Made by a program: the position numbers and the translations under genes. The notes below the pieces were generated by a model. That model was not told the DNA's origin and did no database searches. It worked only from the letters and a program-made list of their open reading frames with translations. Positions 1,790 to 7,451 of a stretch of 12,427 bases of DNA are shown here, in pieces; position 1 is the first letter of the stretch; every line of letters begins with the position of its first letter. The DNA is taken from contig CAIVKT010000275.1 of the NCBI GenBank assembly GCA_903906615.1, positions 1 to 12,427 of the forward strand. The letters are read 5' to 3'. Source of the DNA: an uncultured Bacteroidota bacterium. GTDB taxonomy: Bacteria > Bacteroidota > Bacteroidia > Chitinophagales > Chitinophagaceae.

Positions 1790-4072
1790 ATGCAGAATTA
1801 TTTAGTGGGATTGAACGAGGAGCAGCGCACAGCCGTGGAACATATGGATGGTCCGCTGATGATAGTGGCGGGCGCAGGCAGCGGCAAAACCAAGGTACTC
1901 ACCACGCGCATAGCCCACCTCATGTACAATGGCGTGGATGCGTTCAATATACTGGCTTTGACGTTTACCAACAAGGCGGCGGCAGAGATGAAGGAAAGGG
2001 TGGAGCGGGCGCTTGGCAATACCGAAGCAAGGAATTTATACATAGGCACCTTTCACTCCGTATTCGCGCGGATACTGCGGGGCGAGGCCAACAGGCTGGG
2101 CTACCCCAACAACTTCACTATCTATGATACCGATGATGCCAAGAGTGTGATCAAGGGCATTGTGAACGAGATGAACCTGGACGACAAGCACTACAAGGCC
2201 GCTTATGTGTATAACCGCATCAGCGCAGCCAAGAACAGCCTGATAGACCCGGCCATGTACAAGCTGGATACGACCATACAGCAGGAGGATGCCCGCGGCA
2301 ACCGCCCGCAGATGGGCGATATATACGAGGCGTATGCCCGGCGCTGCTTCAGGAACGGGGCTATGGATTTTGATGACCTGTTGTTCAAGATGTATATTCT
2401 GCTCACGCACCATCCGGAGGCACTGGCCAAGTACCAGGGCCGCTTTCAGTATATACTGATCGATGAGTACCAGGATACCAACCTGGCGCAGTATGCCATC
2501 ATCAAGATGCTGGGCGCGCGGCACGAGAATATATGCGTGGTGGGCGATGATGCGCAGAGTATCTACTCCTTCCGCGGAGCTACGGTGCAGAACATCCTGC
2601 AATTCCAGGACGACTATGAAGATGTGAAAATAGTGAAGCTGGAGCAGAACTACCGCAGCACACAAACCATACTGAATGTAGCCAACAACGTAATAGGCAA
2701 CAACAAGAACCAGATAAAGAAGTCGCTTTGGACGAGCAATGACGAGGGCGATAAGATAATGCTGGTGCGTACCATGACAGACAATGACGAGGGACGCTTT
2801 GTAGCCGACTCTATAAAGGAGCAGCAGATGCGCAACCACTACGCCAATCGTGACTTTGCGATACTATACCGCACCAACGCGCAGAGCCGCTCCTTCGAGG
2901 AAAGCCTGCGGCGCATGAACATACCTTACAAGCTGGTGGGTGGAACATCCTTCTACCAGCGCAAGGAAGTAAAGGACTACCTCGCCTATATGCGCGTGGT
3001 GGTGAACACGCAGGACGAGGAGAACATCAAGCGCATCATCAACTACCCCACAAGGGGTATAGGCAAGACAACAATAGAGCGCATACTGGTGCGTGCCAAT
3101 GAGCTGAACACGACCTTCTGGGAGGTGATCTCCAACCACGAAATAGATGGGATACGCTCCACGCAGATTGATAACTTTGTGATGATGATCCGCAGCTTCC
3201 AGGCTATGTTGGAGAAGCATACGGCCTATGATGTGGCCTATGCGGTGGGCAAGCATACCGGCCTGGTGCAGGAGCTATACAATGATAAGACAGTAGAAGG
3301 CCTGGCCCGCTATGAGAACGTGCAGGAACTGCTGAACTCTATAAAGGAATTTACAGAAACACCGGATGAAGAAGGCGAGCTGCGCGATAAGAACCTGGGC
3401 AGCTACCTGCAACAGATAACCCTGCTCACCGATGCCGACCAGAACAATGACGAGAATGCTGATGTGGTGAAGCTGATGACCATACATGCCGCAAAGGGCC
3501 TGGAGTTTACCTGCGTATTTGCTGTCGGGCTGGAGGAGAACCTCTTCCCGAGCGCTATGAGCCTGTATGACCGGGAGAACCTCGAAGAAGAGCGCCGCCT
3601 GTTCTATGTTGTGATCACACGTGCGAAGGCAAAGCTGTGGGTGACGTATGCCAACAGCCGCTACCGCTTCGGTACGCTGGTGCAGAACGAGCCGAGCCGC
3701 TTTATAGAAGAGATACCGGCAGCCCACCTCGACAAAACATTTACGGGTACCAGCAATAAAGCGCCTACCAGCCCAGGCGGCTTCGGAAGCATGATGAACC
3801 AGACGTTCGACAAAATGCCATCGCTGAAAAAGCTGGCCGATAAGCTGGCGCAGCCTGCACCGCCGGTACATACGCCATCACCCGACTTTGTACCTGACGA
3901 TGCCATGGCCATGGAGCCGGGTATGCAGGTAGAGCATCAAAAATTCGGGATGGGAAAGATACTGACCGTAGAAGGCGGAGTACAAAACAGGATAGCCGGC
4001 ATAGACTTCGGTACCGGCCACGGCGTAAAAAAGATCATGCTCAACTTTGCGAAGCTCAGGATAGTGAAGTAA
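1790..4072 (+). CDS. uvrD: UvrD/PcrA-type superfamily 1A DNA helicase
   Basis: This ATP-dependent 3'-5' helicase of 760 residues should act in nucleotide excision repair, mismatch repair or clearing of replication blocks, as known for the family. All SF1A motifs are visible: Q motif LNEEQR (8-13), Walker A AGAGSGKT (27-34), Ia TFTNKAA (58-64), Walker B DEYQDT (225-230), III GDDAQSIYSFRGA (252-264), IV QNYRST (286-291), V TIHAAKGLEF (564-573) and VI EERRLFYVVITRA (600-612). Residues 640-700 form a Pro/Thr/Ser-rich linker. The last 55 residues (VEHQKFGMGKI onward) are the small beta-barrel C-terminal domain that in PcrA/UvrD contacts RNA polymerase. Length is normal and the gene looks intact. 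It appears monocistronic, since the downstream genes have very different composition. Confidence 0.96.
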   Translation: MQNYLVGLNEEQRTAVEHMDGPLMIVAGAGSGKTKVLTTRIAHLMYNGVDAFNILALTFTNKAAAEMKERVERALGNTEARNLYIGTFHSVFARILRGEANRLGYPNNFTIYDTDDAKSVIKGIVNEMNLDDKHYKAAYVYNRISAAKNSLIDPAMYKLDTTIQQEDARGNRPQMGDIYEAYARRCFRNGAMDFDDLLFKMYILLTHHPEALAKYQGRFQYILIDEYQDTNLAQYAIIKMLGARHENICVVGDDAQSIYSFRGATVQNILQFQDDYEDVKIVKLEQNYRSTQTILNVANNVIGNNKNQIKKSLWTSNDEGDKIMLVRTMTDNDEGRFVADSIKEQQMRNHYANRDFAILYRTNAQSRSFEESLRRMNIPYKLVGGTSFYQRKEVKDYLAYMRVVVNTQDEENIKRIINYPTRGIGKTTIERILVRANELNTTFWEVISNHEIDGIRSTQIDNFVMMIRSFQAMLEKHTAYDVAYAVGKHTGLVQELYNDKTVEGLARYENVQELLNSIKEFTETPDEEGELRDKNLGSYLQQITLLTDADQNNDENADVVKLMTIHAAKGLEFTCVFAVGLEENLFPSAMSLYDRENLEEERRLFYVVITRAKAKLWVTYANSRYRFGTLVQNEPSRFIEEIPAAHLDKTFTGTSNKAPTSPGGFGSMMNQTFDKMPSLKKLADKLAQPAPPVHTPSPDFVPDDAMAMEPGMQVEHQKFGMGKILTVEGGVQNRIAGIDFGTGHGVKKIMLNFAKLRIVK

Positions 4073-4107
4073 AGTGAAAAGGCAAAAGTGAAAACCTAAA
4101 AGTGAAA
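4071..4107 (+). repeat. Three AAAGTGAAA repeats with 14-bp period
   Basis: AAAGTGAAA occurs at 4071-4079, 4085-4093 and 4099-4107, spaced exactly 14 bases apart and beginning inside the helicase stop codon. The array sits at the junction between the helicase and the AT-rich duplicated gene pair. Function unknown; it may be slippage-derived. Confidence 0.6.
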
Positions 4108-4143
4108 TAATGTTTGTTTTGGGAAAATTATTAATTTTACAAA

Positions 4144-4149
4144 AAGGAG
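4144..4149 (+). promoter_or_regulatory. Shine-Dalgarno site of copy 1 small gene
   Basis: AAGGAG is placed 6 bases before the ATT codon at 4156, exactly as in the intact copy at 4402-4407. Its conservation suggests that translation may still be attempted at a non-ATG codon. Confidence 0.5.
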
Positions 4150-4155
4150 TTTATT

Positions 4156-4305
4156 ATTACGGATGAACAAATAGCAAGGCAAATTGAAGTGCTAAAAAGT
4201 GTAGGGAAAGAGGCCTCAAGAAATAAAGAAACGGCTATCAAATTTCTGAGGGATGCAGGTATTCTGAAAGACGAAGAGGCCAAGCGTTCTAAAAAGAAAA
4301 AGTAG
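4156..4305 (+). CDS. Small partner paralogue with ATT in place of ATG
   Basis: An open frame of 49 codons aligns with the 53-residue protein at 4414-4575. Shared parts are TDEQ right after the start, QIE, and the block KFLRDAGI (29-36), followed by a Lys-rich tail (SKKKK). The start codon position, fixed by alignment and by the Shine-Dalgarno site, reads ATT. Upstream in frame there is no ATG, GTG or TTG before a TAA at 4132. A GTG at codon 12 would give a 38-residue product but lacks a ribosome site. It may be translated poorly from ATT, as infC is, or be dead. The frame is otherwise undamaged, so it could be a solo antitoxin-like gene left beside a broken partner. Confidence 0.5.
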   Translation: MTDEQIARQIEVLKSVGKEASRNKETAIKFLRDAGILKDEEAKRSKKKK

Positions 4306-4308
4306 ATT

Positions 4309-4392
4309 ATGCACGATTATCAGCCTTTTAGTGTCATTGGGTTTCATAGTTGTGATAGGGAAGTATTTAGAATATCAGTTCTGTTTATTTAA
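4309..4392 (+). pseudogene. Truncated copy of the ART-like gene
   Basis: A start codon follows the stop of the small paralogue by three bases. The first 19 codons (MHDYQPFSVIGFHSCDREV) match the intact protein at 4568-5167 except for K17 to R. Then homology ends and 8 unrelated codons run into a TAA at 4390-4392. About 90% of the protein is missing, including the GTGIYF motif, so it cannot be an active enzyme. Across the 56 aligned bases seven differences are synonymous and one codon (AGG/AAA) changes Arg to Lys. Confidence 0.8.
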
Positions 4393-4401
4393 GTTTACAA
4401 A

Positions 4402-4407
4402 AAGGAG
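4402..4407 (+). promoter_or_regulatory. Shine-Dalgarno site of the 53-residue gene
   Basis: AAGGAG lies 6 bases before the ATG at 4414, a near-ideal placement. This fixes the start of the small gene. Other genes in the window lack such sites, which fits a horizontally acquired origin for this pair. Confidence 0.75.
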
Positions 4408-4413
4408 TTTATT

Positions 4414-4575
4414 ATGACGGATGAACAAGCAAGAGCGCAAATTGAACTAATAGATAAGGTAACAAAGGAATTATTGAAGGATAAGAAAGCTGCGTACAAA
4501 TTTCTTAGGGATGCAGGTATACCTGTAGGCAATGAGCCATTTGGATCCTCAAAGAAAAAGGCTCGTCATGCATGA
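4414..4575 (+). CDS. Small partner protein, antitoxin-like (53 aa)
   Basis: This short gene encodes MTDEQARAQIELIDKVTKEL, a Lys-rich helix, the block KFLRDAGI (29-36) and a basic tail (SKKKARHA). The KFLRDAGI-type ending resembles small antitoxin-like or accessory proteins that carry an 'F-L-x-x-A-G-I' motif; this family link is from memory. The start is set by a strong Shine-Dalgarno site. The stop codon (4573-4575) overlaps the start of the next gene by 8 bases (ATGCATGA), so the two are probably translationally coupled. A diverged paralogue lies 258 bases upstream. It may neutralise, fold or regulate the ART-like protein; this is inferred only from size, order and overlap. Confidence 0.7.
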   Translation: MTDEQARAQIELIDKVTKELLKDKKAAYKFLRDAGIPVGNEPFGSSKKKARHA

Positions 4576-5167
4576 TTATCAGCCATTCAGTGTTATCGGA
4601 TTTCATAGTTGCGATAAAGAAGTTGGCCTTAGGGTGTTAAATGGTAATGATGAGCTATTGCCTAGTGAAAATGCGTGGGACTGGTTAGGTACAGGTATAT
4701 ATTTTTGGGAACAGAACCCATTTCGCGCTTTGGAATATGCAATGGAAAGTGTTCAACGAAAGCAATTCAATAAAAAGCCAATAAAAGAACCTTTTGTTCT
4801 CGGGGCAGTTATAGAACTTGGTAATTGCCTCAATTTAACAGAATCAAGTTCGCTGCAGATCTTGGGCAAAGCATATAGTTCATTGAGCGAATTGAAGAAG
4901 AACCTCGGCGAAGATATGCCTGTCAATAAACATAACAATCGTGCGTTAGACTGTGCCGTAATCCAATACTTACATCAATTAAATGAGCTGAAGAATGAGC
5001 CTGGGTACGACACCGTAAGATGTGCGTTCCCGGAGGGAGAGCAGGCATATCCCGATTCTTACATAACCTCGCGGCTGCATATACAGGTGTGTGTGCGCAA
5101 TGCAGACTGTATCAAAGGTTTCTTTCTCCCCCGGCCTTTGGCAAAATTCAATCCGTCTATGAAGTAG
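4568..5167 (+). CDS. Putative ADP-ribosyltransferase-like protein
   Basis: The 199-residue protein has motifs resembling ARTs of the PARP/diphtheria-toxin type. H13 in GFHSCD could be the first NAD-binding residue. WDWLGTGIYFWEQNPFRALEYA (37-58, hyphen-free run split here: WDWLGTGIYF, then WEQNPFRALEYA) resembles the 'GxGIYF...A..YA' strand-helix with the second key residue Y45. RLHIQVCVRN (169-178) could supply the third, with Q173 rather than Glu. I recall uncharacterised bacterial proteins with the same 'H-x-C-D ... DWLGxGIYFWE ... HIQ' pattern, but no tested function. I chose ATG 4568 over 4532: it matches the start of the truncated copy at 4309 and overlaps the small gene's stop. The 3' third is visibly richer in GC than the 5' part. 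The substrate, if any, is unknown; a toxin or defence effector is plausible. Confidence 0.75.
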   Translation: MHDYQPFSVIGFHSCDKEVGLRVLNGNDELLPSENAWDWLGTGIYFWEQNPFRALEYAMESVQRKQFNKKPIKEPFVLGAVIELGNCLNLTESSSLQILGKAYSSLSELKKNLGEDMPVNKHNNRALDCAVIQYLHQLNELKNEPGYDTVRCAFPEGEQAYPDSYITSRLHIQVCVRNADCIKGFFLPRPLAKFNPSMK

Positions 5168-5563
5168 TTATTGTTCCTTTCCTGCGAATGCCGCCAATAG
5201 GCAGAATAAACCAATGCCCAATAATCCGCCGATGGCATCTGCTACGGCATCCATGAGCTCCATGCTGCGGCCGAGGAAGGTGAGGAGGCCCTGCATAAGC
5301 TCGATGAAGCAGCCGAGGGCTACTGCTGTGAGGAACATGATGAGCAGTCGGGGAATGGTGCGTAAAGGGTAGGCGCAAAGCCAGAACAGCGTAAAGCCGC
5401 CGAAAAGGACAAGGTGTACCCACTTATCTATGAGTGGCACATCTACTTTGGGGAGGTCCTGGCCGGGAGTGAAGCAGCCAATAAAAATAAGCAAGGTCCA
5501 CCGGATAGCTATGAACCTTGCTTGCTTTGTATAAGGAGAGCCGGGCGTGAATATCCGCAGCAT
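5168..5563 (-). CDS. VanZ-family membrane protein
   Basis: This 131-residue integral membrane protein has four predicted helices (about 15-34, 48-66, 72-94 and 106-127). It carries the VanZ pattern: D46-K-W-x-H50 before the second helix, E88-x-x-Q91 at the end of the third, G98-R99-S100, and D105...D109 leading into G-G-L-L-G. VanZ is named from the teicoplanin-resistance accessory protein of enterococci; most chromosomal homologues have no known function, so no resistance role is implied. It begins 5 bases after the gcvH stop and is presumably co-transcribed with it, an arrangement I recall from other Bacteroidota. Its stop codon directly abuts the stop codon of the convergent ART-like gene, with no base between. 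Confidence 0.85.
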   Translation of the reverse strand: MLRIFTPGSPYTKQARFIAIRWTLLIFIGCFTPGQDLPKVDVPLIDKWVHLVLFGGFTLFWLCAYPLRTIPRLLIMFLTAVALGCFIELMQGLLTFLGRSMELMDAVADAIGGLLGIGLFCLLAAFAGKEQ

Positions 5564-5568
5564 CTGTA

Positions 5569-5946
5569 TTAACCTACTAATTTCTGGTATGCTTCGGCAT
5601 CCATCAGGCCGCTTGCCTGTGCAGGGTCGGTGAGGGTCATTTTTACGATCCAGCCGGTGCCATAAGGGTCTTTGTTCACGCTCTCCGGGTTGTCATTCAG
5701 GCTCCCGTTTGCTTCTGTGATGGTTCCGCCTACAGGCAGGTACAGGTCAGAAACTGTTTTTACCGCTTCCACGCTACCGAAGATAGTATTAGCTTGCAAA
5801 GTCTTACCAACAGATGGAATATCAACGTACACGATATCGCCCAGCTCATGCTGTGCAAAATCAGTGATACCTACAGTGGCTGTGTTGCCTTCTACCAGGA
5901 CCCATTCGTGGTCGTTGGTGTAACGTAAATTTGCGGGGAAATTCAT
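5569..5946 (-). CDS. gcvH: Glycine cleavage system H protein
   Basis: GcvH is the lipoylated carrier of the glycine cleavage complex: it shuttles the aminomethyl intermediate from P protein (glycine decarboxylase) to T protein and is re-oxidised by L protein, feeding one-carbon units to tetrahydrofolate. The 125-residue length is typical. The lipoyl-attachment site is clear: [13 protein letters not shown] at 57-69 with K63 as the modified lysine. Other family signatures are YTNDHEWV (9-16), [20 protein letters not shown] (25-44), E60 near the lipoyl turn, and the C-terminal NDDP-like and GTGWIVKM region. gcvT and gcvP are not in the window, which is normal where these genes are scattered. It is followed by the VanZ-family gene in the same transcription unit. 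Confidence 0.97.
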
Positions 5947-6071
5947 TGTTTCAGATTTTGAGGTAAAAATAGGGTAAAAAATTAGAAAAGCTAAATGGTT
6001 AATTGGTTAACTAGTTAAAAGGTCAATGAGGTAGCAAGTTAATAAATTAGTTAACATTTTAATTTAATATA
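5947..6071. repeat. AT-rich gcvH upstream region with GTTAA repeats
   Basis: Between tolC-like and gcvH lie five GTTAA motifs within 5998-6055, including the 12-bp perfect palindrome TTAACTAGTTAA at 6007-6018. The gcvH promoter is expected here. On the minus strand TATTTTTA, about 25-30 bases before the ATG, is one mismatch from TAnnTTTG, but no convincing -33 element was found. Confidence 0.45.
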
Positions 6072-7451
6072 TCAGGGTTTTATGGCGCCGATATAGAAAT
6101 CGAGGGCTTTTTTGCGGAGCATCATATTTACAGAGGCCTGTATCTTATCCTGCGCGGCCTGTAATAGTACAAGCTGGGCATTTGACTCTGTGATAAAGTC
6201 TGTAGCACCTTCTTTGTAGAGGCCACTTACGGCATCAAATGCTTTTTGCGCTGCGTTTAAGCCAACACCTACTGTTTCCATCTGCTGTACGGCATTGCGA
6301 TAGTCGTTGTGAGCGAGGCGCACGTTCGCAGTTATATGTGTGAGCGTATCCTGCTGGTCTATACGGGCATTGTCGGCGGCGATCTTAGCTATGGCCACAT
6401 TCGTTTTGGTGTAGTATCGGTCGAAGATATTCCATGTGGCATTGACACCTACCAAGCCATAGGTATACTTATAGAGCTGTGTAGGTATGTTTTGCTGTGT
6501 TTCGACCGGAGTGGTCGCGCCATTCACCTCAAGCGTGTTGAAGTATGCGCCATTGTTATATAGGCCTGCCGACAGGCTTACCTGTGGCAGGTAGCCACTA
6601 CGATATTTTTTGATGTTCCAGTCGGATATTTCTGTGTTGATCTTGGCTGCGCGGAGGTCCACCCTGTTTTGCACAGCTTCCTGTACCAGCACTTCGCGGT
6701 TGCCATAGCGTGCGGCATCGGGGTTGTCGTCAATGGCTATGTCGGCTATGTCGTAATTGTCGGTAGAGTCAATACGGAGCTTTTCCAGCAGCATGATCTT
6801 GTCGTTCTGCATTTTGCTCATAGCATTAATGAGCAGTAACTTGTTGCTGCTGGTTTGCGCCTGTTGCTGGTACAGGTCGGTCTTTGCTTTACGGCCTACC
6901 TCAGTGAGCATGGTCAGTTGGTCTTCGCGCTTCATGGAGGTACTGAGGTTATTGCTGTCGAGCGACACTATTTTTTTGTCGAGGATCACCTGTAGGTAAG
7001 ACTGTGTGATATCGAGTTCGATCTCCTGTTTGGCGTAGTCAAGAGTTAGCGAGGATATATCCTTGTTCAGCTTAGCGGCCTTCCAGGTAGAGTAGTTGTA
7101 GTAGCCGGTGAAGATGTTGATGCTGCTGGTCACCTGGTAGTTGAACTGGCTGCGGTTCTCATTGACAAGAGTAGGGCCTGTAGATGCATAAAAGTTATTG
7201 CCCCTGTCGTAGTTGTAGCCGCCTGCCGCTGCGAGGTTGGGCAGGTATTGGCCATAGGCTGCAAGCACTTGCGCACCTGCATTGGCTACATTATTATTGC
7301 CCTTGAGCACTGCTGTGGAACGTTGTATGGCTATATCCACGCAATCGGGCAGGGTGAGTACCTTTACGCCTGTTTGGGCAGTGAGCGTAGTGGCGCATAA
7401 CAATGCAGCCATTATGCCTGATGATATGGTGTATCTCTTGTTGCTGATCAT
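6072..7451 (-). CDS. TolC-family outer-membrane efflux channel
   Basis: This 459-residue protein should form the trimeric outer-membrane channel of the RND pump encoded upstream. It has a signal peptide (basic MISNKR, hydrophobic core, cut near AQ at 25-26). A first TolC repeat follows, beginning LPDCVDIAIQRS and continuing with the AxAQVLAAYGQYLPNL helix pattern. The second repeat starts around VQEAVQNRVDLRAAKINTEI and includes YLPQVSLSAGLYNNG and WNIFDRYYTKTNVAIAKI. Long periplasmic helices occupy the rest. Length is normal. Its start codon overlaps the adaptor's stop by four bases (ATGA at 7448-7451), showing that they are in one operon and probably translationally coupled. Being last, it may be the least expressed of the three unless coupling compensates. 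Substrate cannot be read from the sequence. Confidence 0.93.
   Translation of the reverse strand: MISNKRYTISSGIMAALLCATTLTAQTGVKVLTLPDCVDIAIQRSTAVLKGNNNVANAGAQVLAAYGQYLPNLAAAGGYNYDRGNNFYASTGPTLVNENRSQFNYQVTSSINIFTGYYNYSTWKAAKLNKDISSLTLDYAKQEIELDITQSYLQVILDKKIVSLDSNNLSTSMKREDQLTMLTEVGRKAKTDLYQQQAQTSSNKLLLINAMSKMQNDKIMLLEKLRIDSTDNYDIADIAIDDNPDAARYGNREVLVQEAVQNRVDLRAAKINTEISDWNIKKYRSGYLPQVSLSAGLYNNGAYFNTLEVNGATTPVETQQNIPTQLYKYTYGLVGVNATWNIFDRYYTKTNVAIAKIAADNARIDQQDTLTHITANVRLAHNDYRNAVQQMETVGVGLNAAQKAFDAVSGLYKEGATDFITESNAQLVLLQAAQDKIQASVNMMLRKKALDFYIGAIKP

Follow-up and report, generated by a model that had tools for sequence, protein, structure and literature searches.

A predicted two-gene toxin-antitoxin module in a Chitinophagaceae contig pairs a distant relative of CmdT with a 53-residue protein

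What do two small overlapping genes in the genome of an uncultured member of the Chitinophagaceae encode, and do their products act together? The question arose from an initial annotation, made from sequence alone, of a stretch of 12,427 nucleotides (contig CAIVKT010000275.1, assembly GCA_903906615.1; hereafter the window), in which a gene for a 53-aa protein overlaps a gene for a 199-aa protein. The large protein had been described as ADP-ribosyltransferase (ART)-like and the pair as resembling a type II toxin-antitoxin (TA) module. Our analysis makes it likely that the two genes indeed form a type II-like TA module, in which an NAD+-dependent ART of the H-Y-[EDQ] kind (candidate triad H13-Y45-Q173), related to the toxin CmdT, would be neutralized by its 53-aa partner.

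Structure prediction and a structural search came out in favor of the ART assignment of the initial annotation: the AlphaFold2 model of the large protein (predicted local distance difference test score, pLDDT, 95.4; predicted template modelling score, pTM, 0.90) has a predicted ART fold, and 49 of the 50 structural matches listed by VIA-align are ARTs by name. The PDB matches TMEM260 (0.012) and TUTase (0.22) were taken as chance. Neither of the two window proteins reaches a Pfam or NCBIfam cut-off. PHROG 14664 covers residues 8-187 of the large protein (E 2e-20), and this family is unnamed and has no function assigned to it.

Conservation points to a triad of the H-Y-[EDQ] kind. The three residues that had been singled out initially lie where they had been placed, and among 91 homologues, H13 and Y45 are each kept in all 91, while Q173 is kept in 89 and replaced by E in the remaining 2. 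H171, two residues N-terminal of Q173, is likewise kept in 91/91, and the third residue of the triad, which appears to be conserved in the family, would be either Q173 or H171.

The nearest characterized relative found for the large protein is CmdT of the toxin-antitoxin-chaperone anti-phage system CmdTAC (PD-T4-9), albeit a distant one. The PADLOC profile PD-T4-9_A matches residues 8-60 of the large protein (3.5e-6). When CmdT relatives were sought with this profile in 395 genomes of the phylum, 7 genomes matched, 4 of them (G000, G237, G241, and G280) through members of the present family; 1 of 14 control genomes (M. jannaschii) matched as well. Complete CmdTAC-like operons are present at two loci, L158 and L159, with toxin matches at 9.4e-82 and 6.8e-67 and SecB-like proteins that match at 1.3e-55 and 3.4e-50 and exceed the Pfam SecB cut-off, and L160 is a third, more distant case. 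Aligned by hhalign, the window family matches the three CmdT-like proteins at 96.2% (E 2.1e-9, 148 columns), and the scores against the single proteins (59.5, 36.9, and 38.0) compare with at most 29.6 for 106 control proteins and at most 12.1 for reversed sequences. The likeness extends from an ART toxin of comparable size with detectable homology to a shared LGxGxY(F/L)W motif (3/3 CmdT-like proteins) and an IQIC strand (2/3). The initial annotation knew of no characterized system with this pairing, a statement that missed the kinship to CmdT and that otherwise holds, as no description of the pairing was found in the open-access literature searched, with subscription papers and preprints lying outside the search. 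As an aside, the operon order at L158 (1483-2734) and L159 (1495-2724), both from the phylum Bacteroidota, is small protein, SecB-like protein, toxin, and departs from the T-A-C order of the system name.

In a joint alignment, the triads of the window family and of the CmdT-like proteins match imperfectly. The position of Y45 is Tyr in 3/3 CmdT-like proteins, and Y41 was inferred as the catalytic residue of CmdT (passages of PMC11618068). At position 13, L160 has His, and the toxins of L158 and L159 have Thr where the His of the triad would be expected; at position 173, L158 and L159 share Gln and L160 has Ile, and the three proteins have Glu, Ala, and Leu at position 171. Because Gln occupies 173 in 2 of the 3 CmdT-like proteins and His occupies 171 in none of them, Q173 is favored over H171; of the triad put forward initially, H13 and Y45 therefore stand, while Q173 is preferred rather than settled. 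The spacing to the next strand in PARPs would, by our own reasoning, point to H171 and against Q173. Alignment to the PARP profile was dropped as a guide to the third residue, and the comparison with CmdT preferred, since hhalign to four PF00644 proteins gave no sensible alignment. Pfam PARP (PF00644) scores the window protein at 12.6 bits, below its curated cut-off of 26.7, and matches 5 of 21 family members at 0.1 (best E 7.8e-4); in the phylum its matches are sparse, occurring in 5 of 148 genomes and, in another sample, in 5 of 244.

Is the small protein a regular companion of this enzyme? Its AlphaFold2 model (mean pLDDT 78.8, pTM 0.47) has helices at residues 3-22 and 24-33, followed by a loose tail. 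Nineteen small proteins of relatives were combined into a profile (A3), which was run against 6,079 open reading frames (ORFs), each 40 aa or longer, from 80 loci that had been retrieved from named genomes across phyla by means of the large protein. At the expected upstream site, it matched in 61 loci at 1e-5, in 73 at 0.01, and in 78 at 10, L043 and L046 giving no match, while elsewhere among the ORFs there were 0 matches up to 0.1, 1 up to 1, and 5 up to 10. Four of the loci (L031, L044, L058, and L088) were already represented in A3, and without them the count at 0.01 is 69/76. In 149 genomes, comprising the window's own and those of relatives, 32 of 33 large-gene loci are preceded by the small gene on the same strand, and the sole unpaired one (G090) is a fragment with a stop. 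The adjacency on which the TA proposal had been built is thus borne out, as are the 8-base overlap and a gene order and coupling like those of type II TA modules, with the small gene upstream; co-transcription is predicted. Neither of the two outcomes named in the initial annotation as refuting the proposal, a fold unlike that of ARTs and a small gene seldom adjacent to the large one, was obtained.

The pairing is not symmetrical, as 9 of 41 small-gene matches in the 149 genomes are without a large gene of their own: 2 are extra tandem copies (G015 and G040), 2 contain stops (G020:C170 and G026:C116), and 5 are open orphans (G031:C198 twice, G007, G080, and G060), a large gene being absent from the stretches read. 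Furthermore, 9 of the 33 large-gene loci are damaged (2 split, 4 with internal stops, and 3 partial matches, the window remnant described below included), and 8 of these 9 keep a small frame without any stop. Divergence of the small proteins tracks that of the large ones (r 0.373, 64 pairs, 0/2000 permutations), which shared ancestry alone can explain. These observations bear on an alternative in which the pair would be a regulatory ADP-ribosylating enzyme instead of a TA module, with the small protein as its activator, targeting subunit, or obligate folding partner. While strict pairing and correlated divergence would also be compatible with it, and CmdT accumulation requires CmdA (passages of PMC11618068), small genes that occur alone or in tandem, or stay open beside damaged large genes, argue against it, as does the patchy, partly plasmid-borne distribution of the pair, and we regard it as very improbable. 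It is worth noting that at L149 (965-1436) and L150 (1657-2180), two tandem small genes stand ahead of one large gene, as if extra antitoxins had been kept once their toxins were lost.

Tandem arrangement has also left its mark on the window itself. A second, decayed copy of both genes, absent from the initial annotation, lies immediately 5' of the intact pair (4131-4392) and is exposed by the direct repeats D1 and D2, spaced 258-259 bp. Its small gene has kept the leader and the Shine-Dalgarno sequence, with ATT replacing ATG at 4156-4158, followed by 49 codons and a stop; the small-protein profile matches it at 4159-4302 (E 3e-15), and 133 of 147 bases agree with those of the small gene in the relative L031. 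The leader around the AAGGAG of the intact small gene is common to the decayed copy and to L031. What is left of the upstream large gene encodes 19 N-terminal residues of the family (95% identity over residues 1-19 in the genome search), then divergent sequence and a stop. The locus therefore formerly carried two related yet distinct pairs in tandem. A decayed copy, like the 9/33 split, stop-bearing, or partial large-gene loci, would also be expected of a neutral or decaying gene pair without a special role, a reading that is already contradicted by active-site residues kept in 91 homologues and by pairing in 73/80 loci, and that we find scarcely credible.

How far does the likeness to CmdTAC go beyond the toxin? 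No SecB-like gene was found beside the window-type pair, which sets it apart from CmdTAC: the SecB/CmdC profile gave 0 matches at E<=1 among the 6,079 ORFs of the 80 loci and 0 among the 152 open frames of the window, while in a leave-one-out control, a profile of two true members recovered the third at 1.7e-13 or better. A third gene of any kind was sought by an all-against-all comparison of 653 neighboring ORFs of at least 100 aa, and among these no gene family kept a constant position across diverse loci; the families present in at least 3 loci reflected the synteny of five Rhizobium loci or comprised an ABC-type ATPase, found in 8 loci at distances that varied, and further families of 3-4 loci. 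The window-type partner, mostly 40-70 aa long (range 40-86) and immediately 5' of the enzyme, is a further difference, and its profile showed no significant sequence similarity to three CmdA-like proteins. However, the two helices and unstructured tail predicted for the window partner resemble the architecture of CmdA, described as an N-terminal helix pair with a long unstructured C-terminal part (passages of PMC11618068). Tentatively, and with doubt outweighing conviction, such pairs may make up a chaperone-free and widespread class of ART TA systems that modify RNA, spanning eight or more phylum-level groups; a peptide of some 50 residues with two helices would by itself do the work that CmdA and CmdC share in CmdTAC, and CmdTAC would be the elaborated form, in which the addition of a SecB-like chaperone made a phage sensor of a basic pair of ART and mini-antitoxin.

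CmdT itself targets N6 of adenine within GA dinucleotides of single-stranded RNA (passages of PMC11618068). Among the structural matches listed, protein-modifying ARTs (PARPs, ExoA, and diphtheria toxin) would instead suit a host or phage protein as the target, or else DNA might be modified, as by DarT; since the nearest characterized sequence relative found is the mRNA-modifying CmdT, we consider a target other than RNA unlikely, while distant kin can differ in target. The same matches include NatRT and MbcT-MbcA complexes, that is, RES-Xre pairs, which are two-gene TA systems with an ART-fold toxin as well. The large protein could accordingly be an NAD+-consuming toxin (NADase or NAD+ phosphorylase, like RES) within a pair that would still be a TA module. 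This is quite unlikely, as the conserved residues are of the H-Y-[EDQ] kind, whereas those of RES belong to another clade, and as the RES antitoxin is a helix-turn-helix (HTH) protein (both in passages of PMC9503650); the closest characterized kin found is, again, an mRNA transferase. An Xre or other HTH family was found neither in the window partner, which has no Pfam match, nor among the Pfam families matched by 57 small proteins, which are only UPF0425_C and DUF5343, with one member each; in PHROGs, two of the 57 matched an unnamed family.

DarTG, too, consists of an ART-fold toxin with a neighboring antitoxin gene, and its antitoxin DarG is a macrodomain hydrolase. This gene arrangement (passages of PMC9503650) is like that of the window pair, while the DarG macrodomain (passages of PMC11833690) differs from a partner of 53 aa without a Pfam match; no macrodomain was found by Pfam in the window partner, with the other neighbors scanned only in part. 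ART toxins in TA pairs are thus already known, namely DarT, RES, and CmdT. The passages of the NetFlax TA survey (PMC10440598) that we consulted mention neither CmdT nor PARP and state that DarTG had escaped prediction.

Fold, conserved residues, gene pairing, the failure to find a chaperone gene nearby, variable location, and tandem decay rest on computation; for catalysis, target, toxicity, neutralization, and trigger, we infer the following course for the proposed TA module. The overlapping frames would cause the small and the large protein to be made together; the 53-aa protein would bind the enzyme through its two helices, keep it inactive and, by analogy with CmdA and CmdT, probably assist its folding. 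Loss or degradation of the small protein, upon plasmid loss, segregation, or perhaps phage infection, would release the enzyme, which would then ADP-ribosylate most likely nucleic acid, perhaps single-stranded RNA or mRNA, so that growth stops. A role in phage defense is possible because of the kinship to CmdT, and carriage on plasmids fits addiction at least as well. Weighing against defense, only 3 of 106 neighbors (out of 126 selected ORFs) match PADLOC at 1e-10, a count that has no control set, and the neighbor Pfam families listed (25 of 98) are mostly metabolic, with a phage integrase in 3/106. If the TA reading is true, the pair would add a large unannotated TA family and extend CmdT-type ARTs beyond chaperone-controlled systems; it would also provide a minimal system of two proteins in which to study how so tiny a protein folds an ART and silences it.

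The pair occupies a variable site. Of 35 genomes from the genus, 34 have VanZ, and of 30 loci read at the uvrD-vanZ junction (4072-5168 in the window), 3 hold the pair (the window, G024, and G001, the last with a frameshifted large gene and an intact small gene). In 4/30, the junction measures 8-14 bp, in 5/30 it measures 40-120 bp, in a further 5/30 it spans 793-1010 bp with other genes, and in 13/30, uvrD is not within about 1.5 kb. Among these loci (L165-L194), the alternative content includes a membrane-type protein, recognized by eye, in L169, L176, and L180, and a gene encoding MKNLVRFDWAMKRLLRNK... in L179 and L182.

Beyond the genus, at least 575 stretches encode a relative of the large protein in a scan of genome contigs, and relatives occur on 66 plasmid records. 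An 8.5-kb Acinetobacter plasmid carries the pair with both genes annotated as hypothetical, and on pPSR1 an annotated TA pair of the RelE/ParE type is located nearby. The small gene is upstream in all 4 plasmid loci tested (profile E 3.1e-4 or better); both genes are named 'hypothetical protein' in 3 of the four plasmid records, and the small gene is unannotated in the fourth. A tree of 75 large proteins with eight phylum-level labels requires 11 label changes, the minimum possible being 7; its branches follow the phyla for the most part and mix to some degree, which does not prove transfer. Within the Bacteroidota phylum, the large protein was found in 6 of 395 genomes and the small profile in 4. 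Among the 6, G000, G227, and G241 have an adjoining small-profile match, G580, with a broken large gene, has such a match as well, and upstream of the large gene in G237 and G280 a diverged small ORF was recognized by eye; the small-profile matches G564 and G241:C61 lack a large gene within the 1.9-3.1 kb retrieved. A single-protein query of viral contigs gave no relative of the large protein, and in a phage collection the sole match, 79 residues long, came from Synechococcus phage S-B28 (2 records of the same phage).

Table 1. Positions in the window of the gene pair, its presumed active-site codons, and the decayed upstream copy.
Feature	Positions	Strand	Basis
Small gene, 53 aa, presumed antitoxin	4414..4575	+	ORF, profile, and structure prediction
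Large gene, 199 aa, CmdT-type ADP-ribosyltransferase-fold protein, presumed toxin	4568..5167	+	Fold, PADLOC, hhalign
Shine-Dalgarno-like AAGGAG of the intact small gene	4402..4407	+	Sequence
8-base overlap ATGCATGA, small-gene stop and large-gene start	4568..4575	+	Sequence
H13 codon, first residue of presumed triad	4604..4606	+	Homologue alignment
Y45 codon, second residue of presumed triad, motif WLGxGIYFWE	4700..4702	+	Homologue alignment
Q173 codon, presumed third residue, strand HIQVCV	5084..5086	+	Homologue and CmdT-like alignment
H171 codon, alternative third residue	5078-5080	+	Homologue alignment
Decayed small-gene copy	4131..4305	+	Direct repeat D2, small-protein profile, L031 identity
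Remnant of upstream large gene	4309..4392	+	Genome-search match, direct repeat D1

In the program-made ORF list, the large ORF is given from an upstream ATG at 4532; the start at ATG 4568 is preferred because homologues begin at the position of MHDYQPF/MYSTKPG. The pair is flanked by a UvrD/PcrA-like helicase gene on the 5' side (1790-4072, +) and a VanZ-like gene on the 3' side (5168-5563, -), both named by eye. In 300-base windows, GC content is 35-40% across 4050-4949 and climbs to 45-48% as the large gene reaches its 3' end, with 51-56% on both sides of the pair; low GC (36-41%) also marks an unrelated stretch, 5850-6299. Inverted repeats of at least 12 bases were not found at 3900-5400.

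Three minor observations concern genes elsewhere. In phage S-B28, the gene lies between hli and psbA (L115, 2956-3309) and encodes a piece of about 79 residues that resembles the N-terminal half of the large protein; an S-B28 protein matched by the large protein bears the label DUF6321 in BFVD. On the Pseudomonas syringae plasmid pPSR1 (L112, 2869-3588), a gene annotated as encoding an FRG-domain protein lies directly 5' of the pair. Within the window, a 276-aa ORF at 462-1292 has an N-terminal HTH that, by eye only, resembles a terminase small subunit.
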